Of a DNA stretch of 64,000 nt, positions 35,042 to 64,000 are shown piece by piece. The DNA is taken from NCBI GenBank assembly GCA_916048095.2, contig OU696585.1, positions 2,030,371 through 2,094,370 on the forward strand. The letters are read 5' to 3'. Every line of letters starts with the position of its first letter. Position 1 is the first letter of the stretch. The position numbers were made by a program, and so were the translations under genes. The notes under the pieces were generated by a model. That model saw only the letters and a program-made list of their open reading frames with translations, had not been told where the DNA came from and ran no database searches. This DNA is from Sacculina carcini. Lineage: Eukaryota; Arthropoda; Thecostraca; Sacculinidae.

Positions 35042-35045
35042 CTAG

Positions 35046-35414: not shown

Positions 35415-35420
35415 AATAAA
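35415..35420 (+). promoter_or_regulatory. Possible polyadenylation signal of SLC33A1
   Basis: AATAAA lies 374 bp after the stop codon, downstream of the palindromic element. It is the first AATAAA after the gene. Confidence 0.4.
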
Positions 35421-35835: not shown

Positions 35836-36274
35836 GTTTAGTGGTCTTATTGTACTTCACACTAAATCTGGACTGCAGCTAGGGACAACATGTGGAATGT
35901 GTCTTTTTTTTGTTTTAGTCATAATACGAATATGCTCTGTTGTATGTGCCTGTCTGCCACTTGTTGAATTTAGAAAATATAACGTTTTTGTTTTTATCGT
36001 CAGTTTTGTTCATGATTTCTGAAACGTAGGTTGTTATACGGCGTAACAATTTATATTTATTTATTGAAACCAATTTTACATTGCACTATTTATCTATACA
36101 ATGAATATATTTAATGTTTTTATAATCAATGATCAGTGTTGAATATTTTGTTCATTAATTTCGTATTCAATAAGTCATATTTAGTATGGAGCGATAACGG
36201 AATGCACACAAAATTATAAAAAATTAACAATTATAAGAGTTAATATTTCCAGTTATATCGACATATGGGCTTAT

Positions 36275-36490
36275 GGATCATACTACCGTTTCGGCCAACG
36301 AACCATTTTGGCCAAACGCTCAGCGGACGAAAGACGATGCGATGAATGTCGACATTGGCCAAAATGGTACATGTTGTGAGTGCATCTGACAGTGGCGTAT
36401 CTAGTGACTGAAAGTTAAGCGAGTGACCATCTTGGCCAATCTTTCCTCAGCTGTATGTAGTTCAGTGGTTTTCAAACTTTGATCGTCTGA
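36275..36490 (+). mobile_element. Inverted-repeat joint element, single (right) arm
   Basis: The sequence GCCAACGAACCATTTTGGCC ... CAGTGGTTTTCAAACTTT also contains the hAT-like CAGTGGCGTATCTAGTGAC. The same arm appears at 55865-56070 and, inverted, at 47097-47285, 55706-55855 and 63760-63960. It marks the left edge of unit 1. Confidence 0.65.
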
Positions 36491-37734
36491 ACGTAACCAG
36501 AACGTAACCATCGCACAATGCACTGTAACATAATTGTAACGAGACTTAAATCAATTGAATTTCCCACTTTTGTTTGGGATTATTGACCTCCATCTCTATC
36601 AAAGTATATATTGGAATACATGTTTGATGTTATATTCACATACACTTTTGATTTCCACAACTTTTGATGTTTTATTTACATGTTTAAGTTTATTTTCATA
36701 TAAAATGTCATAGCAAGATGTGCTTATATATGTGCTCTCCTGTTATAAGTGGAAAGGACGTAAAACTAAATATGGATTTTCCGATCAAAAACTGCAATTC
36801 GTCCTGCATTAAATCCAACTTAATTGAACCGAGTCATACGCACCATGAGTGGAAACACTTACACTACACTCAATATGCGCTGTATCAAAATATATTGTCA
36901 ACAATTCATATGACAGTGACAAAAACAACTGGCACGTGATCCGCATGTTTCAATAATATACGATTTGCCAAGTTTCATTCAATATATGACCAAATCCCAT
37001 CCTATAAACAATTTGCTAACATGTTTGTCATTCAATATTCACAATTAATAAAACAGGTGAGGCACGCGATAATTTTATTTTCAAAATAAAAATCAACAAT
37101 GGTAATACAGTCATCAGTTCTGGGACATGGAAACAAATTACACATCTAAAAAAATCAAATACAAATCCTCATTGATACATAATACGTAGAGTTCACATAT
37201 GATATTGATAACGGCTCATAGAGCGCGGAACTTCTATCTTCATGCTCGCATTATGCTTGAAATGGTTGACCGCATCAAATCCAGTATGATGGCTTGCACC
37301 ACAGGCGGTAGATCTGTGCACACAAACTGATTTAGCTAGTTCATATGTATGTTCATAGTTCACACACACATGCCAACTAGCATGTGAGACTTTGGACGAA
37401 TCATCTCTGTGTGTGTCCAGGACGTGGCACGAGGACTCACTCTCACAGCGTCCGATCAGTCAATACATGCACTGAATCCCTAGCACTATGCTACTTTAGT
37501 ACATTCTGTTCAGAAGATGGGTTCAGAATGTATGAAATCCACCATTGACCATATCCACGATGGCTACAGGTCCCCCTTTCACTATGGAAAGTATTATCCG
37601 CTCAGAGGCGGGGGTATCATAGCTGCCACGCTATTCGCTGTGGCCTGCTTTTGATGGAAGAAATTGAAAAACACACATAATGAATGAAAAACTAGCACTT
37701 GAACAAAAACTAACATAACAACCAACATATACAC

Positions 37735-38510
37735 ACACGCAACAGCACATACACACACACACACAAGCACACATATACACACAAAACAGCACATACACAC
37801 ACACAAGCACACATATACACACACACACACACAAGCACACATATAAACACGCAATAGCACATACATACGCACGCACAAGCACACACACACAAGCACAGAA
37901 ACAAGCACGTGTTTTACCATATGAGCACGCAAAACACACACAGACAAAGCAAAAACAACACGGTTCATGCACAAAATTAGTATCAAACAAACAAAATATT
38001 GCAGCAACAAAATATTTTTATATGTTTTCTTTTCTTTTTTTTGGTTATTTTATTCATGCACATTCCTGTACATCTACATCCACAGACGCAACCAAGCAAA
38101 TAAACAGAGACACAATATACGTACAAACACACAGACACCCGCACAGAGAGAGGCACGCACACACACACAGCGGCATTCAAACAGAGAGGTACACACACAC
38201 ACACACTCAGAGAGGAACACACAGCCACCCACACAGAGACTTACACAGAGGTACACACAGAGATTACAAACGCACACACACACACAAACCCACACACACA
38301 CACGCGCAGAGAGGTACACACACACAGACACACATAAACCCACACAGAGAGAGGTACACACACACACCCACACATAGACCCACATACAGAGGTACACACA
38401 CACACCTATACAGATAGGTAAGCATACACCCATACAGAGAGGTACACCCACTACACACTGATAGGTACACACACAATACACACAGCGAGGTACACACACA
38501 ACTCAAGCGC
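37735..38510. repeat. AC-rich repeat with GAGAGGTAC interruptions, unit 1
   Basis: Simple AC repeats alternate with ACAGAGAGGTACACACAC units. The homologous but shorter tracts in units 2 and 3 lie at about 48000-48130 and 57040-57150. The long Cys-rich ORFs on the minus strand are artefacts. Confidence 0.85.
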
Positions 38511-38525
38511 GGATTAGCAGCGTAT

Positions 38526-38804
38526 ATGCTGTTTACTGATGGTTTATCATTCACCGGCAGCACCAAAGATGGGATGAGGGCAAGCATCCTGAAGCAAACA
38601 AAAGCAAAGGATGATTTTCGTCTCGTTCCTATTGGTACCATTCTCACGGTAGGCCAAACAGACCAGGCGGTATCTATTTCTGATTTGCTAGATGGTCATT
38701 GGGTACTAGCTGAGTATCTCAGCTTAGCTAGTAGCTCATACGCCCTTGAAACAGGTTTTGTTTTTAATCCTGTAGGGTGTCTAGCCACCCTCCTCACTGC
38801 TTAG
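38526..38804 (+). CDS. Unrecognised 92-aa ORF in unit 1
   Basis: The ORF starts just after the AC-rich tract with MLFTDGLSFTG and ends at TAG 38802-38804. Composition is ordinary (not repeat-like) and includes LVPIGTILTVGQTDQAV. I do not recognise the family. It has no counterpart in units 2 and 3, where a retrotransposon occupies this position. It could be a captured exon, a remnant of an element, or chance. Confidence 0.3.
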   Translation: MLFTDGLSFTGSTKDGMRASILKQTKAKDDFRLVPIGTILTVGQTDQAVSISDLLDGHWVLAEYLSLASSSYALETGFVFNPVGCLATLLTA

Positions 38805-39248
38805 CAGTGGGGGCGCCGGTTTAGTCGCCGACGATTCGACCAAAGTTCACTGAGTAATAGATTTGATGAATCATGATTGTTCGTAGGAGGACTATCGAAA
38901 CAGACGGATTACGGCCAGTGCGGCATGCGCACAGGCAAATCTATCACAGGGAAACCAGTGAAACCCAATCACACACACACACACACAGAGTCACATACGC
39001 ACACAAATACACAGAAGACACACATACACAAATAAGAAGAGACAGATACACACCCAGAGACACACTCTCACAAACCCCGGGAAACACACACACACAGAGA
39101 GAGAGAGAGAACGAGACACACAGAGACACAGGCACGCACACACACACCTACATGAACACACAGACAGACACAAAGAAGCAAAAACATATACACACACAGA
39201 GGAGCACATACATACACACATAGAAACAGAATTACACACATAAACATC

Positions 39249-40316
39249 TCACATACAAAGTCGATCAGTAACGGCAGGAGTTGTCGAGCTCTCCATTCTC
39301 TCTATCTCATATTTGCGTTCGCGATTTCTCTTCATGACTCTGTATTTCCGATAGGCGGCCCTCGTGCTCATTCCTCGATCAATTAGATCGCGTATACTTG
39401 GCAAAGCGTCATTCGGGGCACGATCAGTAACGGCAGGAGTTGCCTCTATATCTGGTTGTCCTACGCTTCTCTCACTACTCACCTCTGCATCTACCCTGCA
39501 CTCTCTCTCAGTAACGACAGGAGTTGCCTCTACCTCTGGTTGTCCTACACTTCTCTCACTACTCACCTCTGTATCTACCCTGCACTCTCTCTCAGTAACG
39601 GCGGGAGTTGCCTCTACCACTGGTTGTCCTGCGTCTCTTTCACCGCTGACCGTTGCGCCTACTCTGAAAAGCACACTCGTATCAAACAAAACATCCACAG
39701 AACCTTCGATTGTATACAAGACATTGCTTGACTCATCCATAGTCTCTGAAGGAGCGAATACTTCGCCGTCATGCTGCATGACATCCACATTGCTTGGAGA
39801 CAAACCATTTGTGGCGATCCCATCATCCACGCTTGAAGGCGAGGCCACATCAACACTCCTATTCCGGGAAAAGGGTGAAAGCGATCTGTGTATAGGCAAC
39901 CCATCTTCCACACCACTCGGTGATGGAGACAACACGACATTACGACTCGACGGTGAAGATGTGTACCGCGCAACGGCCATTCGCCGCCTAGTGCTTCGAT
40001 ACGCCAGGTTTGAGTGCGGATGACGGCGCTTGGCAATGTTGAACAATTGCACAAGGCGCTGAGGCTCGCTGCGCGCCAACGCGTAGCACTCTGCACGACA
40101 GCGAATGTCAGCCAGAGTTTGGTCGCAGGGCAGGTGATTGTGCTCCTGTCCGATGCGGAAAGAATCACCGCTGCGAATCGCCGAGCCATTGCAGCCGCTC
40201 TCCTTGCAGCGGAAATACTGCCGACCACGCCTGGTCCATCTGTGGCGATAGATGAAGCCGTCCAGCTGATAGAACGTCTTGACACGCCTTCCACTTGAAA
40301 TCTCGATGCACTCCAT
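39249..40316 (-). CDS. FLYWCH zinc-finger protein, probably transposon-encoded
   Basis: FLYWCH fingers bind DNA or protein and are common in Mutator-type transposons and in some host regulators. I take Met at 40314-40316 as start (MECIEISSGRR); the frame is open further upstream to 40523. The finger follows at once: FYQLDGFIY ... YFRCKESGCNGSA ... EHNH gives the C-x4-C and H-x-H ligands. The middle is low-complexity Ser-rich. A 33-aa unit (ERSVGQPEVEATPVVTEREC-type) is then repeated about three times (about 39420-39640). The end is a basic, helix-like IRDLIDRGMSTRAAYRKYRV. There is no transposase catalytic domain. Units 2 and 3 keep only the part around MDESNNVLYTIEGSVDVLF. Confidence 0.65.
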   Translation of the reverse strand: MECIEISSGRRVKTFYQLDGFIYRHRWTRRGRQYFRCKESGCNGSAIRSGDSFRIGQEHNHLPCDQTLADIRCRAECYALARSEPQRLVQLFNIAKRRHPHSNLAYRSTRRRMAVARYTSSPSSRNVVLSPSPSGVEDGLPIHRSLSPFSRNRSVDVASPSSVDDGIATNGLSPSNVDVMQHDGEVFAPSETMDESSNVLYTIEGSVDVLFDTSVLFRVGATVSGERDAGQPVVEATPAVTERECRVDTEVSSERSVGQPEVEATPVVTERECRVDAEVSSERSVGQPDIEATPAVTDRAPNDALPSIRDLIDRGMSTRAAYRKYRVMKRNRERKYEIERMESSTTPAVTDRLCM

Positions 40317-40564
40317 GACTTGCACGATAATCGCAATCAATGTCTGCAATGTACGGTGCAATGTATATTGCATTGCACCACCGGGGGTGCCAAATCCTCC
40401 CCTGAGCGGCCTCATAGAAATAACGAGATGAGGTAAATAATAAATTGAAAGATAAATGCTCATGTTATCCCACAACCCTCCGCATTGTGGTTTTGTATAT
40501 CCTGACGATGCATTTACTAACAATTACACTCGCACGTGGTTGAACACTAAAATATTGCACAGTT

Positions 40565-40790
40565 TACAATTAAAAATCAGCTTTACTTAATTAACTTGTT
40601 GATTTATCAAATCATCTCCGTTAGACACTAAAACATTGCACAAATTTACAATGTATTATCACCTTTTCTTGTTTTAATTGGTGTGTTGTTGTTTAGAAGC
40701 TGGTTGATATATCATTTATAATCAGATTTGCAGAATATATTTTATCAGATTAAAGACATTATCGTATAGTTTACGTTGTTAATTTTAGGT
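40565..40790. repeat. Direct repeat pair within unit 1
   Basis: About 225 bp (AAAATCAGCTTTACTTAATT ... GTTGTTAATTTTAGGTT) recurs at about 43215-43448 in the same orientation. It flanks the satellite remnant and CR1-like insertion. Units 2 and 3 have one related copy each (about 50890-51060 and 60045-60220). Confidence 0.75.
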
Positions 40791-40931
40791 TAAGGACAAA
40801 GACAATAAGAATGGCAAATTTTAGCTTAAATGTATTATTTCAAAATTTTCAGAATATGGACAAAGACACTGAAATCGACTAATTTTAGCTAGAATTTAAT
40901 ATTTTAAAGTTATTTACTCTTAAATCTTACC

Positions 40932-43076
40932 CTCTCCAAAACCGCTCTGGTCAACCCTGAATTCCCTTCTAGGTCGCAAACCAACTGCTCCAGAGACCAC
41001 CATCTCCTGCTCCGATTTTGCCAAATATTTCACTGATAAACTCATTTCCTTACGCTCTGAACTTCCTACACCATCAAACCATGCACGACTACAACTTTTC
41101 CTTTTTCTTCTACCACATGTTTCTTAACTTCTTTTAATCAGATCTCAATAACTACCACCCATCGCCTCATCACACACACCAAAAAATCATTTTGTCCATC
41201 TAATCCAATAAACTTTTCTGCTATATCGTCCTCTCTTCATCTACTCGCTCCTTTTCTGACCCATCTCATCAATGCCTCGTTTCTTCATGGAACCTTCATC
41301 ACCAGCAAACATGCCATTCTCACTCCTATCCTTAAAAAACCCTCTCTTGATCCGACAATTCTTAAAAACTACCGACCTATTTCCCTCCTTCCATTCTCCT
41401 CCAAAATCCTTGAATCTGCCATCTGATCAGCCTATCTTCATCATAATCATCTCCTTGACGATCTTCAATCAGGCTTCGTTCCACGACATTCAACCGAATC
41501 TGCCCTTGTTCGCCTTCAGCACGATATACTCCCTCATTTTTCACAAAAAACATCTGTATTACTTATTCTCTTGGATATGTCATCTGCTTTTGACCTCGTC
41601 GATCATAAAATTTTAATTCAAGACCTCTCTTCCATTGGAATATCCCATTCAGCTCTTTCTCTCTTAACATCCTTCCTCACTTATCGCTCCTACTCTGTTC
41701 TTTTCGACTCCTGTCATTCACAAACTCTTCCTCTTTTATCAGGGGTTCCCAAGGGTTCATCACTGGGGCCTATTCTTTTTAACATTTACATGTCATCTCT
41801 CTGTCCCATATTGCGCAAATTATCCCTTTCTTTTCATATATATGCAGATGACGTCCAGATTTTCCTTCCCTTATCCTATCAAAAGTCTGTTCCTCATATC
41901 ATGGACACTATCTCACCTTGGGCCTCCTCACGATCACTGATCATCAATCCTTCTAAAACTGAATATATTGTTCAATATATTCACCCGCCTATGATCCACC
42001 CTGCTCTGTCTGACTTGCCTCTTTCATCCCATGTACGTGACCTCGGTATTATACTAGATCCGCACCTATCCTATCAAAAACACTTCACTTCTACCGCTCA
42101 TATCTGTCGGTTAATTATCCGAAATCTATATTTGATCCGTCCTTACATTGACTCTCCTCTCGCACACTCCCTGGTATCTGCTCTCAAACTCCCCCGCATT
42201 GACTACTGCAATTCACTATTTCTACACCTTCCACAGAAAACCTATAACATACTGCAGTCTGTCCTTAATCAAGCCTGTCGTTTCATCCTTCGCCTTCCTT
42301 CACATCACCCCACATCATCCCATCTACGTGACTTGGGTATCCTACCCATACCCTACCGCATTCATCATAAAATCTGTTTACTGACATACAAGCTCTTACA
42401 TCTTTCTGATTCACCGCAGTATCTTCTAGAACTCCTATCGCCACATGTTGGTCCTCGTGATACACGACAGTTCAAAGTACTCCTTGAACCTCGTTCTCTT
42501 TGTGAATCTTTCTGGTCGACACGCTCTCTTCAGTTTACTGCACCACGTATGTACAACAACCTTCCATATGAACTGCTCTCCTCCACATCTGTTAAATCAT
42601 TCTCGAAGCTACTACATTCTCACCTTCTCTCGCTATTAGATTAAATGACCTGCTCATAATGCTAAAAGCATAAAAGCTGAAAACATGCTCATAATTGCAT
42701 TATTTGTTCTTGTTTTGTATGTGTGCATGCTAGACCTTTTCTTGATATTAGATTAAATTACTTGCTCATAACTGCATTCTCTATACTTGTTTGTATGTGT
42801 GCTTGTATATGTTTGCATGTCTGCCTGATTCGCATGTTATATTTGTAGTGGCATCTTTATTTACTTACGTGCTGCCTTTTGTAATTACACCTATATTCTG
42901 TTTCTTGTCACGACCTCTATAATTTGTCATGTATGTTCGCATGTTTTTCTCTGCAGTTTCTGCATTTGCATGTTACATGTTTTCTGGCTTATTTATTTTA
43001 TTTAGTTTTATTATTGCATGTCTACTTTATTCTTTATGCTAATTGTGCCTGTGGTAGGCTGAAGTACAAATACAAA
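40932..43076 (+). mobile_element. CR1-like non-LTR retrotransposon, degenerate, unit 1
   Basis: The insertion lies inside a 151-bp satellite unit, with TACC on both sides (40928-40931 and 43077-43080) and a 3' tail of ATACAAA-type repeats. Reverse transcriptase blocks are readable: NYRPISLLPFSSKILESAI then a TGA stop, SSAFDLVDH, SGVPKGSSLGP and YADDVQIF. From about 41571 the frame is open to the stop at 42642-42644 (357 aa). Upstream there are a stop and frameshifts, so the copy is inactive. The endonuclease domain is missing (5' truncation). Confidence 0.88.
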
Positions 43077-44959
43077 TACCATTTTTCCCAAGTCAATGCC
43101 ATTTTCAATATCACAACGATGTTAGTGAATAACACGATGGGAATATATAAATCTGGACAAACACAGTGCAATTGACTAATTCTAGCTAGAATTTAAGATT
43201 TCAAAGTTTTTAAAGTATTTATTTAAAATTAAAAATCAGCTATACTTAATAAACTTGTTGATTTAACAAATCATATCCGTTAGACACTAAAACATTGCAC
43301 AAATTTACAATGTATTATCACCTATACTTGTTTTAATTGGTGTGTTGTTGTTGAGAAAATTGTTGATTTATATTTTATAATCAGATTTGCAGAATATATT
43401 TTATCAGATTAAATACATTATCGCATAGTTTACGCTGTTAATTTTAGGTTCACAAAGCTCATTTTAGGGCAATTATTTATGTCAAGGAATAATTTAAGAA
43501 TTGACATTTACCATTAAAATTGATATTCAACATTATGCTTAACATTAAAAATTGTCTCAAAAAGCATACAAAAAAGCTGAAAATTTCACAAAAATCTATC
43601 AATATATCCTTAATGTATCTAGATATGATGGATCATATGACGCATTATGGATGCGCCTACCTTATACAACCCTTCAATACAGACTTCTAATAAAATACAA
43701 CCAAAATAGCCCATATTACACGTTTACAGGTTTTATGGCTTTGGGCGTTATATTAGGCATCATTAAATCTCGTTTCTACCTAGGAACACACTTACACCCG
43801 ATAACAGTCCCAATAGGCCAATAGCAATCCAAATGAAAAACATACAACTGACCGAATAATTAAAGCCCACAAACTACCAAAAATAAAAGTTTACAATCCC
43901 TGTAGCACTAACTATGCAATGGGCATAGTTAAAACCTCTATTAACAGTAGAAATATCATAAAAAACCTCATTATTAACCCGAATCACATGGACCGATTTG
44001 CTAAAATATGAATAACAACCCTTTGGCTCAAATAAGACAATCAATGAAATATGAACCTTAAACATCAAAACATTTGTTTGCTAAAATAAATCAACTATCA
44101 TACAAATACAATAAAAACTGTCTTCCCGCACAACAAACAAACACTCAACAAACCATACAGGAAATAACCAATGTTCGAATGTTCAACAACACCGCCTTAA
44201 CCCATCAAAGGGTTTAAAAATAATTTCGTATTCACTAAGAATGATGAGATCTAAAAACACACCAAAAATTCAAATTTATTGACAAATAGATAATATTCCT
44301 AAGATTGTTTTAGCATATATATTTAGATTAAAGCCGAGCCACTAGCGTCACGCGTTGCAACATGTTTCGCAGTTTCTGAGATAGTGCTAAATTCAATTTT
44401 ATGTTGGCTGAATTTAAGAAACAAATCAATACTAAGGAACGTTTTCAATGAGCTGAAAAAATATCTAATTAAAAATTAATGCTTGATATATTGTATATGT
44501 GAAAGCCTTGACAAACATCAAATGCGCCAAATTTGAAAGCAACGTTTTGCTTTTGATTTGTTTTGTTTAGCGATAATTCAATATATTTCCAAGCAATACA
44601 AATTGAACAGACATAGGCAGAGATAAATAAACATTCTCTATTGAGCTTAGTGAGGATAATGTCAGTCGCGTCACGCGTGCAACACATGTCCAGTGTAAAG
44701 AAAGAGGACATTTCATTTACATACCTATTTGTATTTAATATTCTACAATTCACTACACTTACCAACTTTGTTCTATTAGACGAGTATTGCTGATAAATTA
44801 TCAAAACACACACCAAACATATATATCTGTCAGCTAGTCAGCTAACATCACAAAACTTAAATTGCAGCTCTCATTGATTTAGCTCTGTTGATTTAGCAGT
44901 TGACATAACGTGTTGCAACACTGATGATAGACAAGCTCACACTGCTACCATTGATCTTG

Positions 44960-45000
44960 CCAATCAGGACCAATTTTCTGCAACATTGTGTCTATTTAAA
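44960..45000 (+). promoter_or_regulatory. CCAAT/CCAAT/TATTTAAA block, unit 1
   Basis: Two CCAAT boxes (44960-44964 and 44970-44974) precede TATTTAAA (44993-45000). A GC-richer GCGAGCAGAAGAGACGG follows, where transcription could start. The same arrangement is kept at 55034-55074 and 63083-63124. Confidence 0.45.
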
Positions 45001-45354
45001 GCTCAGGCGAGCAGAAGAGACGGTCAGACACAATCACACAAACATGCACACCCACACCAACACACAACCACCGGCATGCAAATATCAGCGCAAAAATTAT
45101 TACGCAATGTCTTATCAGTGCAGCAACAACTGATATTGGATAAAAACACATAACTGAAGTTGTCTGCATTAAATCTCTTACCGTCTTGTGAACCATTTGT
45201 GTTGTGCAGAAACAGTTTGAATTCGCGTCTTTCACTGGTGTACAGAAACATGTTGATTATGTTAGCATAAAGTGTAAATGTGCTGAAATGCATATAGTAT
45301 TCATAAAGGATACCACACTGTTATTAAGAAAGTGTACTTACCTTATGTTCTTGA

Positions 45355-46763
45355 CACTCCTATTATCTTTGGGGTCAATTTGACCCCAAGCGATTTTCAA
45401 TTCAATATAACTTGATAACAATAATTCGAACTTGACTGATTTTTTGTGACTTTGTTCAAAATTGTCTACCAATTCGTTTATGTCCCAATTTCCTATTATG
45501 AATTAACAAATTTAATGTAAATTTTTATTTCTCACTACTTTGTTCCTTGGGGTCAAATTGACCCCATACAACTGGAACTCATACTGATAATTGGCATGAA
45601 TTTAAGCACATTTCAGTGGGTCTATTCATTTTCGTGGTTGGAACAGTGAGGAAAAACAAGCCTGAGCTTCCTCACGAGCTGCTGTGCATGAAAAATAGGC
45701 GAGTAAACTCTTCAATATTCGCCTATACAGATCGCACTACTGTGGCATCGTATTGCTCGAAAAGAAAGAAAAATGTGCTACTGATGAACACTATGCACAA
45801 GGATGGCGCCTTGAGCGCTCGAGAAGACAGAAAGACCCAAATGATTCTTGATTACAATGCTACAAAAGGAGGTGTTGATAATTTGGATAAAGTAACAGCT
45901 ACTTACAGCTGTCGGCGCATGACAGCGCGCTGGCCACTGGTTGTTTTCTTCCACGTTATTGATGTTAGCGCCCACAAAGCGTTTGTTCTCTGGCGCGAAA
46001 TCAACCAAGACTGGTGCAAAGGAAATCCTAGCAAAAAAAAGAAAATTTCTGGAGCAACTTCGAGAGAAGGGAATATCTGCCCAGAACATCAACAGCTGCA
46101 GCGGACGTGGTCAAACACATTCAGTCACAAGTATCGCCATTGTGCTGCGCCACGTGCAGCAGCGTCACGCACCACTTCGGGGAACCTGCCAGAAGCACAC
46201 GCGCAGTGTCCTCTGCCCTTGCAGCGTTTTGTGTGCGGCATCATATTACAATTCTATACATCTGCATGTGCGTTGCAGCCTTGTACATGTGTGTCATGTG
46301 TCGCAATAAACAGTCGGTCCAGAACACTCGCTCTGTGTGCTAGTGCAGCTCCGTGGTATGTAGCTTCGCCACACCATCAGCACATGCTGCGGTGCCTGTT
46401 AGAGGCAAAAAACGCGGTAGATGCCAAATGTGCCCTCACAGGAACGACTCAAAAACCAGCAGTGTCTGTTACAAATGCAGAAAGTACATTTGTAAGCAGC
46501 ATACGTGTACACTGTGCATTTCTTGTGTTCAATAATATCGAATATAGATGGAAAATGTGACTGCATTACGCGTTTTGCCGTTTATTTTATGTTGATGTTG
46601 TTCATATTTGGATAATTATGTAATTATAGTGTGAAAATATGCTAAACCTCTTAAATACATATTAAATGCATAATCTTAAATATGTTAAACCTCGTAAATA
46701 CAGCTGGGTCAAATTGACCCCAAAGGATAAAAAGTGTTAGTTTATTTGAAGGTAATACGAGGG
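45355..46763 (+). mobile_element. piggyBac element with broken transposase, unit 1
   Basis: Ends CACTCCTATTATC and GGTAATACGAGGG form inverted repeats. The flanks are TTGA (45351-45354, a mutated TTAA) and TTAA (46764-46767). Units 2 and 3 have the empty TTAA site. From 45616 the + frame encodes the C-terminal half of a piggyBac transposase: GTVRKNKPELP, then YNATKGGVDNLDKV, which holds the third catalytic Asp, then TARWPLVVFFHVIDVSAHKAFVLW. A frameshift follows. The Cys-rich zinc-binding tail is readable in another frame at 46400-46535 (CQMCPHR, CYKCRKYICKQHTC). The N-terminal half with the first two Asp is deleted. Internal GGGGTCAATTTGACCCC palindromes occur near both ends. Confidence 0.9.
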
Positions 46764-47096
46764 TTAAACAAAACTCACCATTTCAGCTCAATAACAACCG
46801 GATAACACAATTTTTCTTCGGCCAAAAAATGAAATACTATATATGTAAATACACACTCATACACACAGTCGAATTATTAAAGTCGTGGAAATGTACGTAT
46901 CCGCACTGACTGTGCATAACCTTACAATGAAATACCACTGAAAATTAAATAAAATAATGATCCAGTTCAGAAAGTTTTCTCAAAAGTAGCGTTTGAAAAA
47001 TCTGTTTTATTTCAGTGCATTATGCAATGATCAGTGGAACCACACAAAAAAATAGGCGAAAATTGTCTAGGTTATAGACCGATTGGGCAATATGTC

Positions 47097-47285
47097 TTTG
47101 AATGTTACAGCTGAGGAAAGATTGGCCAAGATGGTCACTCGCTTAACTATCAGTCACTAGATACGCCACTTTTAGATGCACTCACAATATGTACCATTTT
47201 AGCCAACGTCGATATTAATCGCATCGTATTTCGTCCGCTGATCGTTGGCCAAAATGGTTCGTTGGCCGAAACGGTAGTAGATCCA
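47097..47285 (-). mobile_element. Inverted-repeat joint element, left arm only
   Basis: This is the inverted counterpart of 36275-36490 (CAGCTGAGGAAAGATTGGCC ... CGTTGGCCGAAACGG). The right arm is missing here. It lies at the junction of units 1 and 2. Confidence 0.65.
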
Positions 47286-48315: not shown

Positions 48316-48317
48316 AG

Positions 48318-50440
<2,123 letters not shown>

Positions 50441-50445
50441 AGAGG

Positions 50446-52718: not shown

Positions 52719-54248
52719 TAATGTCAATGTCAATTTAGACACGTTTTCTACAGCAAATTATCGCCCCATTTCCCTTCTAACATTCTCAGCCAAAATTATT
52801 GAAGCTGCAATTTACAAACAATTATCGCATTATATCATGGATAACAATTTTGTCGATCAATTTCAATCTGGTTTTATCAAACATAGATCCACCGAAACCG
52901 CTCTTCTCAAAATTCAAAATGACGTTCTCCATCAGTTTTCATCTAAAACTCCAATTATCCTTATTTTAATCGACCTTTCCTCAGCTTTTGATTTAGTTGA
53001 TCATTCTGTCCTCATCCAGGATCTTCGTTCATTTGGTATATCTGATTCTGCTCTTTCACTGTTCATTTCTTACCTATCTGACCGTAGCTTTTCTGTCCAA
53101 ATTGATTCCGATGAGTCCCCTTCACATCCAATCACTTCTGGTGTCCCTCAAGGATCTATCCTCGGTCCCATTTTGTTCAACATTTTCATGTACTCCATTT
53201 GTCCTCTCCTCCGATCCATGTCTCTATCTTATCACCTTTTTGCCGACGATATACAAATATATTTACCTGCTTTTCGCGAGAACGATATTCCTAACATATT
53301 CAACGCTATCAATTCCTGGGCTTCCTCTAGATCACTTGTTATTAACCACTCTAAAACCCAATTCCTACTATTGCAAACCCCTTGTATGGATTTCCAAGTG
53401 AACCAACTGAAAATACTGCCTCACGTTAAAAGTCTTGGTGTATATATTGATGCCTCACTCAGCTTCTCTCACCACATTAAAATCACTTTACGAAAGTGTC
53501 GCTATATACTACGTAACCTCTATATGTCGCGTAAATACCTAGATCAACGTTCCTCCATTGCTCTAATTAATGCCTTTATTTTCCCCCATCTAAATTATTG
53601 TTCCTCTTTGTTTTATTCTCTACCAAAAAAAGACATTTCTTCCTTCCAATCTATTCTCAACCAATCGTGCCGTTTTGTTTTCAGACTTCCTTCCCGTCAT
53701 CCTACCTCTCGACACCTAAAAACATTGAGATGGCTTCCTTTTAAATATATGACCCAACACAAAATATGCTGTCTCACTTTCAAATTGATCAACTCCCCCT
53801 ATCCTCCACCCTATCTGAAGGAGCTGGTAGTGCCAGTCTCACACAACACTAACACTCGATCATCTAGTGCCCTTCTAGAACCCCGAGCAGTTTCCGAATC
53901 ATCATGGTCTTCCAAATCCTTCCAATACATTGCCCCCCGTCTGTACAATAAACTTCCCCGTTCAATTATATCTTCCAGTTCCTATAAATCTTTCAGCAGA
54001 AAATTATATAAACATCTTTTGGATGTGTACATAGATTCATGAGCCAACACCGATATTATTCGTTTTTCTGTTGTATACGTGTTTTTGTGTAACTCTTGTG
54101 TGTCTTATCCCGCTGTGAGCCCAAGATTTTATTTTTCTTATGATGCATTTTCATTTGTGTGTACATTGTGTGATTTGTATGTATATTTTCATCCATGCCA
54201 ATACTTTGTTGTATAAAGTGGCAATACATTTCTGATTTCTGATTTCTG
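52719..54248 (+). mobile_element. CR1-like retrotransposon, 5'-truncated with open RT, unit 2
   Basis: The insertion is bounded by AATGTT (52713-52718 and 54249-54254). Unit 3 has the empty site at about 62290-62310. The frame is open to 54042 with all core reverse transcriptase blocks: NYRPISLLTFSAKIIEA, FQSGFIKHRSTETAL, LIDLSSAFDLVDH, SGVPQGSILGPILF, FADDIQIY and the C-terminal LPSRHPTSRHLKTLRWLP region. The 3' UTR ends in about three TTTCTGA units, a CR1-group hallmark. The endonuclease and ORF1 are missing. The intact frame suggests a recent insertion. Confidence 0.92.
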
Positions 54249-54997
54249 AATGTTCGAATTCAACAACACCGCTTTAACCCATCAAAGGGTTTAAAAATAA
54301 TTTATATTTCAATAAAAATGATGAGATTTAAAAACTCACCAAAAACTCAAATTTAGTGACAAATAGACAATATTCCTAAAAAATATTGAGCATATATATA
54401 TAGAATATAGCGGAGCCACTAGCGTCACACGTTGCAACATGTTTCGCAGTTTCTGAGATAGTGCTAAATTCAATTTAATGTTACCTGAATTCAAGAAATT
54501 GATGAAAATAAATTAACATTTTCGATGGGCTGAAACAATATTTAATTCAAATTGAATGCTTTAATTTATTCTATATGTGAAAGCCTGGACAAACGTCAAA
54601 TGCCCCAAATTTGAAAGCAACTTGGTTTTGCTTTCGATTTCTTTTGTTCAGCGATAATTAAATATATTTCTAGGCATTAAAATTGAACAGACATAAGCAG
54701 AGATAAATAAACATTCTCTATTGAGCTTAGTGGGAATAATGTCATTCGCGTCACGCGTGCAACACATGTCCAGTGTAACCATACAGAAACAGCACATCTC
54801 ATTTACATACCTGTTTGTATTTAACATTTTACAATTCACGACACTTACCAACTTTGATCCATTACACGAGTATTGCTGATAGATTATCAAAACACGCACC
54901 AAACATATAAATCTGTCAGCTAGTCAGCTAGCATCACACAACTGAAATTGAAGCTATCATTGATATATCACTGTTGACATAACGTGTTGCAACACTG

Positions 54998-55207
54998 ATG
55001 CTAAACAAGCTCAAACTGCTACCATTGATCTTGCCAATCAGGACCAATTTTCTGCAACATTGTGTCTATTTAAAGCTTAGGCGAGCAGAAGAGACGGGCA
55101 GACACAATCACACAAACATGCACACCCACACCAACACACAACCACCGGCATGCAAATATCAGCGCAAATATTATTACGCAATGTCTTATCAGTGCAGCAA
55201 GAACTGA
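54998..55207 (+). other. Conserved 69-aa frame after the TATA-like block
   Basis: MLNKLKLLPLILPIRTNFL ... recurs nearly unchanged at 44924-45133 and 63048-63257. Since the units are recent duplicates, conservation alone does not prove coding. The block CCAAT/CCAAT/TATTTAAA lies inside this frame (55034-55074), which argues that it is regulatory rather than coding. Confidence 0.3.
55034..55074 (+). promoter_or_regulatory. CCAAT/CCAAT/TATTTAAA block, unit 2
   Basis: The two CCAAT boxes and TATTTAAA have the same spacing as in unit 1. Confidence 0.45.
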
Positions 55208-55705
55208 TATTGATGAAAACACATAACTGAAGTTGTCTGCATTAAATATCTTGCCGTCTTAAGTGTAAAAGTCCTGAAATGCATATAATATTCATAAAGG
55301 ATACCACACTGTAATTAACAAAGTGTACTTACCTTATACTCTTAAACGAAACTCACCATTTCAGCTCAATAACAAGCGGATACCACAACTTTTCTTCGGC
55401 AAAAAAATTAAATACTATATATGTGAATACACACATACAGTCGAGTTATTAAGTCGTGGAAATGTACGTGTCCGCACTGAAACTTACTGTGCATAACCTT
55501 ACAAGGAAACACCACTGAAAATTAAAGAAAAATAATGATCCAGTTCAGAAAGGTTCTCAAAAATAGCATTTGAAAAATTGGTTTTATTTCAGTGCATTAT
55601 GTAATGGTCAGTGGAACCACACAAAAAAGGGCGAAAATTGTCAAGGTTAAATTGTACGTCAAATTGTCAAATTGTACGTCTTTAAATGTCACGTTCACAC
55701 GATAA

Positions 55706-56070
55706 AAAGTTTGAAAGCCACTGAAGCTACATACAGCTGAGGAAAAATTGGCCAAGCTGGTCACTCGCTTAAGTTTCAGTCACTAGATACGCCACTGTCA
55801 GATGCGCTCACAACATATACCATTTTAGCCAACGTCGATATTCATCGATATTCAGGGGTTACGACCGTTTTAGCCAACGAACCATTTTGGCCAACCGCTC
55901 AGCGGACGAAGTACGATGCGATGAATATCGATGAATATCGACGTTGGCTAAAATGGTACATCTTGTGAGCGCATCTGACAGTGGCGTATCTAGTGACTGA
56001 AACTTAAGCGAGTGACCAGCTTGGCCAAGTTTTCCTCAGCTGTATGTAGCTCAGTGGCTTTCAAACTTTT
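55706..56070. mobile_element. Inverted-repeat joint element, both arms
   Basis: The left arm AGTTTGAAAGCCACTG ... TTTAGCCAACGTCGATATTC and right arm CGACGTTGGCTAAAATGG ... CAGTGGCTTTCAAACTTTT are inverted copies. The centre is near 55860, and the centre-proximal part of the left arm is deleted. CAGTGG...CCACTG ends resemble hAT elements, but I saw no clear 8-bp duplication. It sits at the junction of units 2 and 3. Confidence 0.75.
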
Positions 56071-57167
56071 GAGCGATTAAAAACGTAATCACAACGTAAT
56101 CATCGCACAATGCACTGTAACATAATCTCTATCAAAGTATATATCTGAATAAATTTTCGATGTTTTATTGACATACTCTTTTGATTTCCAATTTTTTTAA
56201 AGTCTTATTGACATGTTTAAGTTTCTTTTCATATAAAGTGTCATAGCAAGATGTGTTATATGTGTTATGTGTTATATGTGCTCTTCTGTTATAAGAGGTA
56301 AGAACGTAAAACTAAATACGGATTTTCCGATCAAAAACTGCAATCCGTCCTGAATTAAAACTTGATTTATCCGAGTCTTACGCACCATGAATAGAAACAC
56401 TTACACCCAATATGCGCTGTATCAAAATATATTGTCAACACTTCATATGACAGTGACAGAGACAACTGGCCACGTGATCTGCATGTTTCAATAATAGACG
56501 ATTTGCCAAGTTTCATTCAATATATGATCAAGTCTCATCCTATAAACAATTTTCTAACATGTTTGTCATTCAATATTCACAATGAATAATAACAGACGAG
56601 GAACGCGATAATTTGATGTTTAAAAACAAAAATCAACAATGGTAATACAGTCATATCAGTTCTGGGACACGCACATAAAAAATTCTTCACAGTTCTGGGA
56701 CATAAAAAAACAACATCGTAAAAAATAAAACACACATCCTCATTCATACAGAATTCGTAGACTTCACATATGATATTGATAACGGCTCATAGAACGCACA
56801 TGTGCGCGGTACTATCTTCATGCTCGCATTATGCTTGAAATTGTTGACCGCGTCAGATCCAGTATGATGGGCTGCATCAGCCGCAGTGCTGTCATCACCA
56901 TCACCACAGGCGGTAGATCTGTGCACACAACAAGATTTGGCTAGGTCATACGTATGTTCATAGTTCACACACATGCCAACTAGCATGTGAGACTTTGGAC
57001 GAATCATCTCTGCGTGTCCAGGACGAGGCACAATATACATACAAACACACAGACACCCACACACATACACAGAGAGGTACACACACACCCACACACAAAC
57101 AGAACCACACAGAGTACATACACAACCACACGCACAGACAACCACACAGAGGGAGGTGCCAGGTTTC

Positions 57168-57335
57168 GTCCAAGAGTCCAATGTGTCCAAGCTCTCACGC
57201 TCTTTCTCGCTCGTCCACTGTGAGGTTAGGTTAGGTTAGGTAGAGCGTTTGTTTGTTTACCTTGGCACATTGGACTCTTGGACAAATGGGGAGTCGGTCC
57301 TACCTCTGTGTGGGACCGACTCCCCATTTGTCCAC
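57168..57335. repeat. Nested inverted repeats with (GGTTA)n, unit 3
   Basis: This is the same structure as 48129-48315. The outer pair is CCAAGAGTCCAATGTG and its complement, with three GGTTA units (about 57222-57240) inside. The inner hairpin stem, about 19 bp (ACAAATGGGGAGTCGGTCC), is perfect. Confidence 0.8.
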
Positions 57336-57382
57336 AGAGGTACACACACACACACACATACACACACACACACACACACACA

Positions 57383-59460
57383 GAGAGAAGCGGGACACAC
57401 AAAACCGAGTGCGATCACAGCACGACGAAGACGAGGCCAGATCCCGCGGCGTCAGAGCCAAGTGCGTCGACGGAGACATTGGCGCAGCTCTCCGCCAGCT
57501 GACATCCAGCGACTGCTTGGCCGAGCACGACGAGGCAGTGACCGCTGAGCTCGAGCGCAAGCACCCGCCTGCATTGCCGGACGAGCAGCTGCAGATGCAT
57601 GACGCCGGAACACTGCCGATTTTTGAGGAGCACGAACTCCGCTCCGTCGTGCACTCGATGCCCAAAGGTTCATCGGGAGGACTGGACGCTATACGGCCGC
57701 TACATCTCCGCCAGCTCATCGCGCCACAGACGACTGGAGCGGGCGCCCAGCTGCTGAAGGCACTGACGCAGCTGTGCAACTGTTGTGCACAGGGTCGCAT
57801 CCCGGACCTCGTGCTCGACGCATTCTACAGCGCGCGACTAATCGCATTGCGCAAGAAGTCCGGCGTGCTGCGCCCAGTAGCCGTCGGCAGTGTTTTACGG
57901 CGCCTCGCCAGCAAACTGATCGCTGGCAAAATGACGAGAGCAGTCGCACAGCAGTTGCGCCCCGTTCAGCTCGGAGTGGGGTGCAAGCTGGGCTGCGAAG
58001 CGGCCGTGCACGCCACGCGCACCTTCGTCAATGAGGCTGACGGTCGGCATGGTCACATTCTGCTGAAGCTGGATGTGACCAACGCCTTCAACACCGTCAG
58101 TCGGCGCGCGCTGCTCGACGAAGTCGCCCGTCGTTTCCCCACTGTACCACGGCACCACGCGAATCTGGTTATGTCGCGGTGTACAGCAGGGAGACCCGCT
58201 AGGGCCCGTGCTGATCGCCCTCGCCGTCGACCCGGTGGCCCAGTCTCTCCAGTCGCCTCTGAACGTGTGGTACCTGGACGACGCCACACTGGTAGGCCCA
58301 GAGATGTCGTGCTTGCGGACGTAAACCGCCTGGTACCGGCCCTCGGCAGCATTGGCCTCGAGCTCAACGCTGGTAAATGCGAGCTCGTGAGCTTGGGTCC
58401 AGCCACTGGCACACGACCAGCAGAGACCGAGCACCCGCCGCCACATCACTGCATCACTCCTGCCGCCACATCACTGCTCGCTTCAGCCACGATCTCGCCG
58501 CTATCCGACCTGCATCTGCTCGGCGCACCAGTGCAGACTGGCGGAATTGCAGAGACGCTGAAAGAAATCAAGGCCAAGACGTCCCTGCTGATTCAGCGCT
58601 CATCCAACATCGGCTCGCACCCGGCGCTGTTCTTTCTCAGAATATATGCGTCGGTTCCGCGGGCAATGTATCTGCTAAGAGCAGCGCCGGTGTACCAGGC
58701 CCGCGCACAAATGGGTGACATCGACGAGCAGCTGAGATCGGCCATCAGTGATTGCTGCAATGTCGCCATGTCGGACGACATGCTCCTCACAGCGGCGCTC
58801 GGCTCTCAGCGCTGCCTGTCGCCAACCTCGGTTTGCTGCTGCCAGACGAAGCCGTGCGAGTCGGCGTGGCGTTGCGACTTGGTGCCGCAGTGCAGGAACC
58901 GCACATATGTCACTGCGGTGCCACAACTGACAGGTGGGGCCACCATAGCCTCTCCTGCAGTCGCAATGCCGGCCGCCTGCCACGCCACACGGCGCTGAAC
59001 AACATCATTCGCCGCAGTCTGGCGTCGGCAAGAATCGCCGCGGTGCTGGAGCCACGAGGCCTGGACCGCGGCGACGGCCGCCGACCGGACGGGATTACCG
59101 CGTTCCCAGTGAGGCACGGTAAGTCGCTGCTCTGGGATGTGACCTGCGTCAACACGTTCTGCAGCACACATCTGCTGAACGGCGCAGTCACTTCCGGGGC
59201 AGCAGCGCAGGCGGTAGAAGATCGAAAGCGGCGGCGCTACGCAGAACTGTGTCAGCGGTACGATTTCGTGCCGATGGCTATCGAGACCACCGGCGTGATG
59301 GGGGCATCCCTGGACGACTTCTTCAAGCTCCTGGGCGGAAGAATGAGCGAGTGTTCAGGGGAGCCGCGAGAGCCTGGCGCCTGGCCGTCATTCGTGGCAA
59401 CGCCGCCTCCTTTGTAATGTAGTATTGTGAATATGTGTACGCGTTTGTAAATCTACTTGT
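57383..59460 (+). mobile_element. R2-superfamily (RLE) non-LTR retrotransposon, unit 3 copy
   Basis: This copy is longer than that in unit 2 because it keeps the stretch around ALRQLTSSDC ... SSGGLDAIRPLHLRQL before the RT. RT core: LRPVAVGSVLRRLASK, ILLKLDVTNAFNTVSRRALL, RGVQQGDPLGPVL and VWYLDDATL (the last two out of frame with the rest). The CCHC (CHC ... HHSLSC) and endonuclease (RRPDG, LLWDVTC, EDRKRRRY) follow in a third frame to the stop near 59417. The frameshifts before QQGDPLGP and near 58800 are shared with unit 2. AC-type repeats flank both ends. It is inactive. Confidence 0.88.
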
Positions 59461-59611
59461 TTGTTACACACAAAGACACCCACACAGAGAGGTACACACA
59501 CAAAGACACCCACACAGAGGTACATACACACGCAAAAAGACACCCACACGCAAAAAGACACCCACACAGAGTTAAACGCACAAACACACCCACACAGAGA
59601 GGTACACGCAC

Positions 59612-59850
59612 AATACTACTCACCTCTGCATCTACGCTCCACTCTATCTCGGTAACCACTGGAATCGGCTCAACGTCTGGTTGTCCTGCGTCTCTTTCAC
59701 CGCTGACCGCTGCGCCTACTCTGAATAGCACCTTCGTCTCAAACAAAACATCCACAGAACCTTCGATTGTATACAAGACATTGTTTGACTCATCCATAGA
59801 GTCTTGCCAGATCCTCTCCTAAGCGGCCTCATAGAAATGATGACACGAGG
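59612..59850 (-). pseudogene. FLYWCH ORF remnant, unit 3
   Basis: It is the same truncated form as at 50446-50700, with the same internal deletion joining an ISMRPLRRGSGK-like stretch to MDESNNVLY... (in another frame). It follows the retrotransposon end and an AC-rich stretch. Confidence 0.75.
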
Positions 59851-60240
59851 TAGAACATAACAAGAGTTTTGCCATGTTAACACACCACCCTCCGAATTGT
59901 GTGTTTGTATATCCTTACGATGCATTTATACTCGCACGTGGTTGTAAAATTTACGTTTATTTACGTTGAACGTTTGTTTTACGCTTATACGTTAACATAA
60001 TAAACGTATATTTACGTTTACGTGGTTATACATTGCCCAATTTTACAATGTATCATCAGCTTTACTTGCTTTATTTGTAGTTGTCGAGAAGCTTGTTGAT
60101 TTCTCATTTATAATCAGATTTGCAGAATATATTTTATCAGATTAAATACATTATCATATACTTTACGTAGTTTATTTTACGATCACATAGCTTATTTTAA
60201 GGGCAATTATTTATGTCAAAGAATAATTTAATGTTTAACA

Positions 60241-61570
60241 TTTACCGGACAAAGACACTGAAATTGACTAATTTTAGCTAGAATTTAAGAGTTCAAGGTT
60301 GTTTGTACTCATAAATTTTACCATTTTCCCACGTCAATGCCATTTTCAATATCTCAAGGACGTTAGTAAATAACACACAATGAGAATATATGAATCCGGA
60401 CAAAGACACTGAAATTGACTAATTTTAGCTAGAATTTAAGAGTTCAAGGTTGTTTTTACTCATAAATTTTACCATTTTCCCACGTCAATGCCATTTTCAA
60501 TATCTCAAGGACGTTAGTAAATAACACACAATGAGAATATATGAATCCGGACAAAGACACTGAAATTAACTAATTTTAGCTAGAATTTAAGAGTTCAAGT
60601 TTGTTTTTACTCATAAATTTTACAATTTTCCCACGTCAATGCCATTTTCAATATCTCAAGGACGTTAGTAAATAACACACAATGAGAATATATGAATCCG
60701 GACAAAGACACTGAAATTAACTAATTTTAGCTGGAATTTAAGAGTTCAAGGTTGTTTTTACTCATAAATTTTACCATTTTCCCATTTCAATGCCATTTTC
60801 AATATCTCAAGGACGTTAGTAAATAACACACAATGAGAATATATGAATCCGGACAAAGACACTGAAATTGACTAATTTTAGCTAGAATTTAAGAGTTCAA
60901 GGTTGTTTTTACTCATAAATTTTACAATTTTCCCACGTCAATGCCATTTTCAATATCTCAAGGACGTTAGTAAATAACACACAATGAGAATATATGAATC
61001 CGGACAAAGACACTGAAATTAACTAATTTTAGCTAGAATTTAAGAGTTCAAGTTTGTTTTTACTCATAAATTTTACAATTTTCCCACGTCAATGCCATTT
61101 TCAATATCTCAAGGACGTTAGTAAATAACACACAATGAGAATATATGAATCCGGACAAAGACACTGAAATTGACTAATTTTAGCTGGAATTTAAGAGTTC
61201 AAGGTTGTTTTTACTCATAAATTTTACCATTTTCCCATTTCAATGCCATTTTCAATATCTCAAGGACGTTAGTAAATAACACACAATGAGAATATATGAA
61301 TCCGGACAAAGACACTGAAATTGACTAATTTTAGCTAGAATTTAAGAGTTCAAGGTTGTTTTTACTCATAAATTTTACAATTTTCCCACGTCAATGCCAT
61401 TTTCAATATCTCAAGGACGTTAGTAAATAACACACAATGAGAATATATGAATCCGGACAAAGACACTGAAATTAACTAATTTTAGCTAGAATTTAAGAGT
61501 TCAAGGTTGTTTTTACTCATAAATTTTACCATTTTCCCACGTCAATGCCATTTTAAATATCTCAAGGACA
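60241..61570. repeat. 151-bp satellite, about 9 copies (unit 3)
   Basis: GGACAAAGACACTGAAATT recurs at 60247, 60398, 60549, 60700 and onward at 151-bp steps. It is a second subfamily of the satellite at 51180-51960 (GACAAAGACACTGAAATTGAC against GACAGAGACACTTAAATTGAT). Unit 1 holds only about 1.5 copies (40850-40931 and 43077-43200), split by a retrotransposon. Confidence 0.95.
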
Positions 61571-63082
61571 ATATTTTTATATTTTCAATATCTCAAGTTT
61601 CAATATTTCATTGATTACATTAGGCTTAACATTAAAATTGTTCTCAAAATTCACTCAAAAAACCCTGAAAATTTCCCACAAATGTTTCATCAATATATCT
61701 TTAATGTATCAAGACATTATTGATCATATGACGCATTATGGATGCGCCTACCTTCTATAACCCTTCAATACAGACTTCTACTAAAATACAACCAAAATAG
61801 CCCATATTACACGTTTACAGATTTTATGGCTTTCGGCGTTATATTTGGCATCCTTAAATCTCGTTTCTACCTAGGAATTTAGGATCTAGGATACCTAGGA
61901 TCGTTTCTCCCTTACACCCAATAACACACTCCACATAGGCCAACAGCAATCCAAATGAAAAACATACAGCTGACCGAAAAATTAATGCCCACAAACTACC
62001 AAAAAAATAAGTTTACAATCCCTGTAGCACTAACTATGCAGTAGGCAGAGTTAAAACCTCTACAAACAGTAGAAATATCATACACAACCTCATTATTAAC
62101 CCCAATCACATGGACCGATTTGCTAAAATCAGAATAACAACCCTTTAGCTCAAATAAGACAATCAATGAAATATTAACCTAAGACATCAAAGCATTTTAT
62201 TGCTAAAATAAATCACCTATCATACAAATACAATAAAAACACCCGAGTTACCGCACCACAAAGCAACAATCAACGAACCACACACACAGGATATGATCAA
62301 TGTTCGAATTCAACAACACCGCTTTAACCCATCAAAGGGTTTAAAAATAATTTATAATTCACTAAAAATGATGAGATTTAAAAACTCACCAAAAAATCAA
62401 ATTTAGTGACAAATAGACAATATTCCTAAAAAATATTGAGCATATTTATATAGAATATAGCGGAGCCACTAGCGTCACACGTTGCAACATGTTTCGCAGT
62501 TTCTGAGATAGTGCTAAATTCAATTTTATGTTACCTGAATTTAAGAAATTGATGAAAATAAATCAAAATTTTCAATGGGCTGAAACAATATTTAATTCAA
62601 ATTGAATGCTTTAATTTATTCTATATGTGAAAGCCTGGACAAACATCAAATGCCCCAAATTTGAAAGCAACTTTGTTTTGCTTTTGATTTCTTTTGTTCA
62701 GCGATAATTGAATATATTTCTAAGCATTAAAATTGAACAGACATAAGCAGAGATAAATTAACATTCTCTATTGAGCTTAGTGATAATAATGTTATTCGCG
62801 TCACGCGTGCAACACATGTCCAGTGTAACCATACAGAAACAGCACATTTCATTTACATACCTGTTTGTATTTAACATTTTACAATTCACGACACTTACCA
62901 ACTTTGATCCATTACACGAGTATTGCTGATAGATTATCAAAACACGCACCAAACATATAAATCTGTCAGCTAGTCAGCTAGCATCACATAACTGAAATTG
63001 AAGCTCTCATTGATATAGCACTGTTGACATAACGTGTTGCAACACTGATGCTAAACAAGCTCAAACTGCTACCATTGATCTT

Positions 63083-63124
63083 GCCAATCAGGACCAATTT
63101 TCTGCAGCATTGTGTCTATTTAAA
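63083..63124 (+). promoter_or_regulatory. CCAAT/CCAAT/TATTTAAA block, unit 3
   Basis: This is the third copy of the block, unchanged in motif and spacing. Confidence 0.45.
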
Positions 63125-63759
63125 GCTTAGGCGAGCAGAAGAGACGGGCAGACACAATCACACAAACATGCACACCCACACCAACACACAACCACCGGCA
63201 TGCAAATATCAGCGCAAAAATTATTACGCAATGTCTTCTCAGTGCAGCAAGAACTGATATTGATGAAAACATAACTGAAGTTGTCTGCATTGATTATCTT
63301 GCCGTCTTAAGTGTAAAAGTGCTGAAATGCATATAATATTCATAAAGGATACCACACTGTAATTAACAAAGTGTACTTACCTTATACTCTTAAACGAAAC
63401 TCACCATTTCAGCTCAATAACAAGCGGATACCACAACTTTTCTTCGGCAAAAAAATTAAATACTATATATGTAAATACACACATACAGTCGAGTTATTAA
63501 GTCGTGGAAATGTACATGTCCGCAGTGAAACTTACTGTGCATAACCTTACAAGGAAACACCACTGAAAATTTATGTAATATAATGATCCAGTTCAGAAAG
63601 GTTCTCAAAAATAGCATTTGAAAAATTGGTTTTATTTCAGTGCATTATGTAATGGTCAGTGGAACCACACAAAAAAGGGCGAAAATTGTCAAGGTCAAAT
63701 TGTACGTCAAATTGTCAAATTGTACGTCTTTGAATGGCACGTTCACACGATCAAAAGTT

Positions 63760-64000
63760 TGAAAGCCACTGAGCTACATACAGCTGAGGAAAAATTGGCC
63801 AAGCTGGTCACTAGCTTAAGTTTCAGTCACTAGATACGCCACTGTCAGGTGCGCTCACAAGATGTACCATTTTAGCCAACGTCGATATTCATCGATATTC
63901 ATCGCATCGTACTTCGTCCGCTGAGCGGTTGGCCAAAATGGTTCGTTGGCTAATACGGCAGTAGCTCCGATATTCATCGCATCGTACATCGTCCGCTGAG
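63760..64000. mobile_element. Inverted-repeat joint element, end of unit 3
   Basis: The left arm is complete, including GCATCGTACTTCGTCCGCTG and GGCCAAAATGGTTCGTTGGC. It is followed by a second partial copy in the same orientation (CGATATTCATCGCATCGTAC) that is cut by the window end. The array therefore continues beyond the window. Confidence 0.65.

Follow-up and report, generated by a model that had tools for sequence, protein, structure and literature searches.

A macrosatellite-like locus of Sacculina carcini is very probably a cluster of Phantom-like Mutator transposon copies

Introduction

When similar blocks of DNA follow one another in the same order and orientation, have they arisen by tandem growth of a host repeat or by repeated arrival of a transposon? 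The question is raised by a 64,000-nucleotide stretch of the Sacculina carcini genome (GenBank assembly GCA_916048095.2, contig OU696585.1, positions 2,030,371 to 2,094,370 of the forward strand; hereafter the window), in which a sequence-only reading had recognized a tandem macrosatellite built from a composite unit of about 8 kb, naming copies of a large non-autonomous transposon as the alternative. We compared the window (C20:2030371-2094370) with itself and with the whole assembly (264,436,087 bases, 43 contigs). The region is very probably a cluster of three non-autonomous copies, here units 1 to 3, of one Mutator-like element (MULE) with a FLYWCH-like motif, a Phantom-like Mutator DNA transposon for which transposase activity is predicted. 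The cluster extends from window position 36275 to 64000 and runs on to 64043 past the window end.

Both the observation and the interpretation of the sequence-only reading were borne out in part. Self-alignment of the window returned the expected collinear blocks in the same orientation between ~36.3 and 64 kb, and inverted repeats do mark the joints between units, as seen from the self-alignment and from reading the termini. Three copies are present, but the supposed start of a fourth is the tip of the right terminal inverted repeat (TIR) of unit 2, severed by unit 3, and was rejected as a unit; a length of about 8 kb fits unit 3 (8,114 bp) but not unit 1 (11.0 kb). The 151-bp satellite forms arrays in units 2 and 3, whereas unit 1 holds about one repeat and no array. 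A CCAAT/TATA-like block had also been described; CCAAT words are scattered (10, 13, and 8 on the + strand of units 1, 2, and 3, respectively), with no distinct block seen from the word positions examined.

Nesting of unit 3 in unit 2

The features that define the joint between units 2 and 3, with the target site duplication (TSD) of unit 3, are as follows.

47285-55854, + strand: main part of unit 2, a MULE copy without its first ~450 bp, left TIR included, ending within its right TIR (55688-55854)
55847-55854, + strand: left copy of the unit 3 TSD, GATATTCA
55855-63968, + strand: unit 3, an 8,114-bp MULE copy with both TIRs, within the right TIR of unit 2 (from self-alignment, reading of the termini, and related dispersed copies)
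63969-63976, + strand: right copy of the unit 3 TSD, GATATTCA
63977-64000, + strand: remainder of the unit 2 right TIR, severed by unit 3 and extending 43 bases past the window (in locus L009)

Unit 3 points the same way as unit 2, into whose right TIR it was inserted. Its own TIRs are 211 bp long at 97.6% identity. Of the two TSD copies, the left one is part of unit 2's right TIR, which resumes with the right one and runs to 64043; when the two TIR pieces of unit 2 are rejoined without unit 3, they match the right TIR of unit 3 in 104 of 110 aligned columns. With unit 3 lying in this place and orientation, an element end and an element beginning stand back to back, which gives the joint its tandem look. 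Nesting of a long-TIR transposon in the TIR of a sister copy can thus mimic tandem repetition.

Units 2 and 3 are 94.6-97.7% identical in five satellite-free blocks of the self-alignment, each of at least 600 bp, and 83.8% identical in a sixth, satellite-spanning block. Between unit 1 and units 2/3, identity is 83-89% in blocks of at least 600 bp and 79-95% in shorter ones. No further unit was found among matches over 60 bp in the 29,330 bp past the window end, where the only unit DNA is a 78-bp TIR piece (63968-64045) and a 118-bp piece of unit 1 at two places.

A dispersed family with exact target site duplications

Units 1 and 3 carry inverted copies of ~200 bp at their two ends, and the tips of the family read GGGGTTACGACCG, GGAGCTACTGCCG, or GGATCTACTACCG. 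Genome-wide, the TIR ends gave at least 52 matches (40 scored of 535 candidates), being carried by short elements of ~0.4-1.2 kb as well as by long ones, and a search with a 1,001-base block of unit 2 found 800 or more of its bases at 20 places outside the window (38 candidates, all scored). The search for single dispersed units with target duplications that the sequence-only reading had proposed was successful: every one of the nine dispersed long copies with both ends read has a perfect 8-bp TSD in its flanks (C23, CATCAACA; C11, AACACACA; C16, ACATACAC; C8, TCTTGTTG; C7, ATATCTGG; C12, ACACATAA; C1, CTAGATAC; C4, GAATCTTA; C18, GGTGTGGT). These copies bear out the transposon alternative of that reading. 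Among two-ended short copies, the 8-bp TSD is exact in 4 of 11 (L014, L019, L025, L030) and matches at 7 of 8 bases in 3 of 11 (L020, L027, L034).

Coding relatives and superfamily

A full element of 8,827 bp with TIRs and a TSD (CATCAACA) lies at C23:6176648-6185474. Its open reading frame (ORF) of 569 residues contains a Pfam MULE domain over the cut-off (E 2.1e-10) and a FLYWCH-like motif under it (E 0.035); the frame of a C6 copy (626 residues) likewise contains a MULE domain over the cut-off (E 9.8e-10). These two are the long family copies inspected that hold any of the 52 MULE domain matches in the genome. The FLYWCH-like motif is a weak Pfam match (E 0.035-0.039) located N-terminal of the MULE domain, the position expected for Phantom.

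The MULE superfamily is marked by long TIRs, here present in units 1 and 3, by TSDs of 8-11 bp, here 8 bp at the nine long copies and at unit 3 and absent at unit 1, and by a MULE DDE transposase domain in a full relative, here found in the C23 and C6 copies. The hAT and P superfamilies also produce 8-bp TSDs; both were dropped as candidates, since the coding relative bears a MULE domain. For this MULE family, a coding relative and exact TSDs are now documented.

The earlier reading had assigned a FLYWCH ORF to each unit; only unit 1 has one. Units 2 and 3 are without ~3.5 kb of the C23 element (its positions 1305-4817), the FLYWCH part included; an AC repeat and a retroelement stand there instead, along with a short remainder of the ORF tail. 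Unit 1 is without positions 3361-4383 of the C23 element, 1 kb coding for the MULE domain, the deletion lying near 39941-39951. As transposase parts are missing in all three units, these copies would depend on transposase made elsewhere.

Unit 1 and its junctions

The following features describe unit 1.

36275-47284, + strand: unit 1, a MULE copy with both TIRs (36275-~36497 and 47106-47284; from self-alignment, reading of the termini, and comparison with the C23 element)
39249-40523, - strand: remnant transposase ORF with a FLYWCH-like motif at residues 78-130 (Pfam FLYWCH E 0.038, under the cut-off); no MULE domain by Pfam scan

The TIRs of unit 1 are 182 bp long at 93.4% identity. Its right terminus (47284) abuts AAACTAAA, with which unit 2 begins and which is a site internal to units 1 and 3; unit 1 therefore probably was inserted into unit 2. 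On the left it is flanked by GGGCTTAT, at the border of a 500-bp stretch that is unique in the assembly. A hybrid origin of the left TIR, from two recombined left TIRs, fits poorly, as it predicts the unit 2 flank GAGTCCAG and GGGCTTAT is observed. Separately, the 118-bp piece of unit 1 (38726-38842) recurs inverted, at 83% identity, at two places 8-20 kb past the window end, and is probably another small repeat.

Weighing the evidence

Several observations weigh against a cluster of three copies of one Phantom-like MULE. Unit 1 is without a TSD: GGGCTTAT matches neither AAACTAAA nor GAGTCCAG, the 8 bases after unit 2, so that its arrival is not accounted for by one clean insertion. In none of the three proteins tested does the FLYWCH-like motif reach the Pfam cut-off, and a genome-wide FLYWCH search in six frames gave one match, on C22, and none in the MULE family described here; the FLYWCH label thus rests on sub-cut-off matches and inspection. 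Four of the 11 two-ended short copies have no TSD (L026, L028, L038, L041), and no second end of the C6 copy was seen in the 701 bp inspected. A tree of a block downstream of the retroelement (13 rows) places unit 2 in the five-row group of unit 3 (85/95, drawn open), and the tree of an upstream block (11 rows) does not have unit 3 among its rows. Several forks in the trees are weak.

An assembly artefact, in which dispersed copies were misjoined, is improbable. It would suit the left junction of unit 1, where unique DNA is joined to a repeat without a TSD, but the exact TSD at the joint of units 2 and 3 argues against it; as the right side of the cluster is a dispersed repeat, a misjoin is still conceivable on that side.

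Expansion of a host macrosatellite by unequal crossing-over of an 8-kb unit, which the three adjoining blocks in one orientation had suggested, is highly improbable. Single copies are dispersed with TSDs, and unit 3 is nested within unit 2 with a TSD of its own. Tandem-duplicated head-to-tail units of which neighbours are the most alike, as expected of a macrosatellite, were not found: in a block of 1,001 bp, unit 3 shares 99% identity with the C12, C8, and C7 copies and 92-94% with unit 2. The retroelement-block tree (650 bp, 32 rows, with unit 3 of the window entered twice, as L042 and as unit 3) groups unit 3 with the C4, C1, C12, C8, and C7 copies (100/99) and leaves unit 2 outside, and in the downstream-block tree the C1 copy is nearest to unit 3 (86/86). 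By comparison, a genuine array of the same genome, used as a control, has eight matches on C2 spaced 2,840 or 2,838 bp, and the first of four fetched units is 99.9% identical to the other three. The claimed new macrosatellite therefore falls away.

That one MULE copy was segmentally duplicated and its duplicates then diverged, the unit 3 TSD being a coincidence, is barely credible: units 2 and 3 do have one retroelement insertion in common and share a small group of the downstream-block tree, but that insertion is common to 13 dispersed loci and is therefore older than the cluster, units 2 and 3 are not sisters in either tree holding both, and an exact match over 8 bp at a given position would arise by chance with a probability of ~1.5e-5.

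The cluster thus consists of three decayed copies of a known type of transposon, the Mutator type, and is essentially ordinary.

Comparison with known elements

Phantom MULEs are listed with TSDs of 8-10 bp or none indicated, TIRs of 18-613 bp or none, and a FLYWCH finger, a SWIM finger, or no finger, and those of aphids with a minisatellite after the transposase ORF (PMC6446971). The Sacculina family resembles them (group 20 of that source) in having a putative FLYWCH-like finger and a MULE transposase in one frame, a TIR and an 8-bp TSD within the listed ranges, and, as in the aphids, a minisatellite inside the element; it differs in that many copies bear a retroelement insertion and in that the minisatellite here is of 132 or 151 bp (PMC6446971). 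The earlier statement that no described family has this composition does not stand beside the FLYWCH finger, TSD, TIR range, and aphid minisatellite given for Phantom (PMC6446971). The MULE family described here is an additional one within the known Mutator kind, and its likeness to Phantom is one of listed features.

The Tm1 Mutator/Foldback elements of root-knot nematodes likewise combine a Phantom-type transposase with MITE-like (miniature inverted-repeat transposable element-like) and larger relatives sharing a TIR, but have a 9-bp TSD and composite foldback TIRs, in contrast to the 8-bp TSD found here (PMC3169594). Muta1 of Aedes aegypti is an active animal MULE with a comparable TSD of 8 or 9 bp; its activity was demonstrated in yeast, whereas the present family is known from sequence (PMC5225508). 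In mosquitoes, TIRs exceed 100 bp in 12 of 14 MULE families, all but one of which have non-autonomous derivatives (PMC5225508), and of the candidate coding-MULEs of maize, 36% contain nested insertions, as do 41% of those of rice (PMC3903597).

Internal minisatellite

The minisatellite is represented in the cluster by two arrays.

51178-51956, + strand: 151-bp minisatellite of unit 2, 5.2 copies
60245-61569, + strand: 151-bp minisatellite of unit 3, 8.8 copies

The 151-bp array reaches 24.8 copies in the C7 copy, and the C23 element has a minisatellite of 132 bp with 5.9 copies. The 151-bp array is a variable part of a dispersed transposon, not a host satellite unit.

An R2-like retroelement beside the AC repeat

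Beside the AC repeat of units 2 and 3 lies a 5'-truncated retroelement.

48423-50454, + strand: 5'-truncated R2-like retroelement in unit 2, edges approximate
57386-59464, + strand: corresponding retroelement insertion in unit 3

Among the retroelement loci (40 scored of 247 candidates), the same kind of junction with the AC repeat was found at 13 loci outside the window (L043-L055), L042 being unit 3 itself. At least 16 more loci (L056-L071) hold copies with flanks unlike the MULE block; the other 15 of them are 96.9-99.0% identical to L056. Of these 16, 10 extend to the start of the reading frame, and one of the remaining six, L062, borders masked DNA. The N-terminus is open in nine of the ten; in the tenth, L060, the open stretch sought was not found.

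The retroelement consists of one ORF with a zinc finger of the nuclear receptor type (zf-C4), a PHD finger, a reverse transcriptase, and a putative endonuclease. The zf-C4 and PHD domains exceed the Pfam cut-offs in all nine copies scanned, and the first 101 residues match solved nuclear receptor DNA-binding domains (E 3.5e-5). The reverse transcriptase matches the R2 protein of PDB 9nl3 (E 1.1e-12) and Pfam RVT_1 (E 4.5e-17), and is thus R2-like. A PD...WDVT...K-like motif, spotted by eye, marks what we take to be a C-terminal restriction-like endonuclease; two C-terminal pieces gave no Pfam match, and the structure predicted for the window piece is too uncertain to be used (mean predicted local distance difference test score 33.4).

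At most of the loci L056-L071, A-rich and AC-repeat DNA follows the 3' end. At 14 of 16 loci, 5% or more of the 150 bp past the 3' end consists of AC runs, compared with 232 of 1,864 control windows drawn from the extended window; the share is 20% or more at 11 of 16 loci, compared with 74 of 1,864. The two loci L061 and L062 are, respectively, under 5% AC and of the complementary GT/TG type. Retrotransposons without long terminal repeats that are specific for (TG)n, the NeSL-related Togen, are described from fish (PMC4640811); an AC/TG target is therefore not new.

The AC block of units 2 and 3 may, in a reading that we put forward tentatively, be the landing place of an undescribed R2-like retrotransposon with a zf-C4 and PHD N-terminus that targets AC microsatellites; it would have used the AC tracts within the MULE as its landing pad, and the MULE would then have spread the chimera. 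The nuclear-receptor-like domain may be new in a retrotransposon; a literature search on the combination gave nothing relevant, by title and beginning of the abstract, among the matches listed, with thin coverage of subscription journals that makes this weak evidence of novelty. If confirmed, a retrotransposon would here have recruited a nuclear receptor DNA-binding domain, perhaps to choose its target. As a separate observation, a 3' piece of the same retroelement lies at window positions 6842-7443, beside a CACACA repeat and outside the cluster.

Proposed history

The three copies would have been mobilized in trans by the transposase of intact relatives. The retroelement would have landed once, in an ancestral AC repeat, and then been carried along by the transposon, and repeats of the minisatellite would be gained and lost by slippage or unequal exchange. 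For unit 3, the landing site was the right TIR of unit 2, which points the same way; unit 1 would likewise have entered unit 2, and our guess is that a deletion, or recombination between copies, afterwards removed the left side.

Other insertions and repeats

Three other elements or fragments of elements lie within the cluster, two of them related to long interspersed nuclear elements (LINEs).

41571-42644, + strand: LINE-type reverse transcriptase fragment in unit 1 (RVT_1, E 4.8e-20)
45347-46763, + strand: piggyBac-like insert in unit 1 (DDE_Tnp_1_7, E 7.7e-14), with TTAA at the right and TTGA at the left edge, read by eye
52719-54248, + strand: LINE insert in unit 2 with AATGTT at both sides (RVT_1, E 4.9e-37)

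The genuine 2,840-bp tandem array on C2 (C2:11428579-11448810; L005-L008) contains FLYWCH-region and integrase-like fragments, and its surroundings, up to ~50 kb to the left and right, hold several MULE domain matches. To the right of the cluster, L009:463-937 is a dispersed repeat of ~450 bp with many copies, mostly of 78-92% identity. Blocks of window positions 34474-35420, outside the transposon, recur at 83-86% identity ~12.5 and 24.4 kb past the window end (~76564-77349 and ~88337-89125 of the extended window). The window also holds two tandem arrays of short period, at 2197-3068 (20 bp, 43.6 copies) and at 17744-18554 (18 bp, 45.7 copies).

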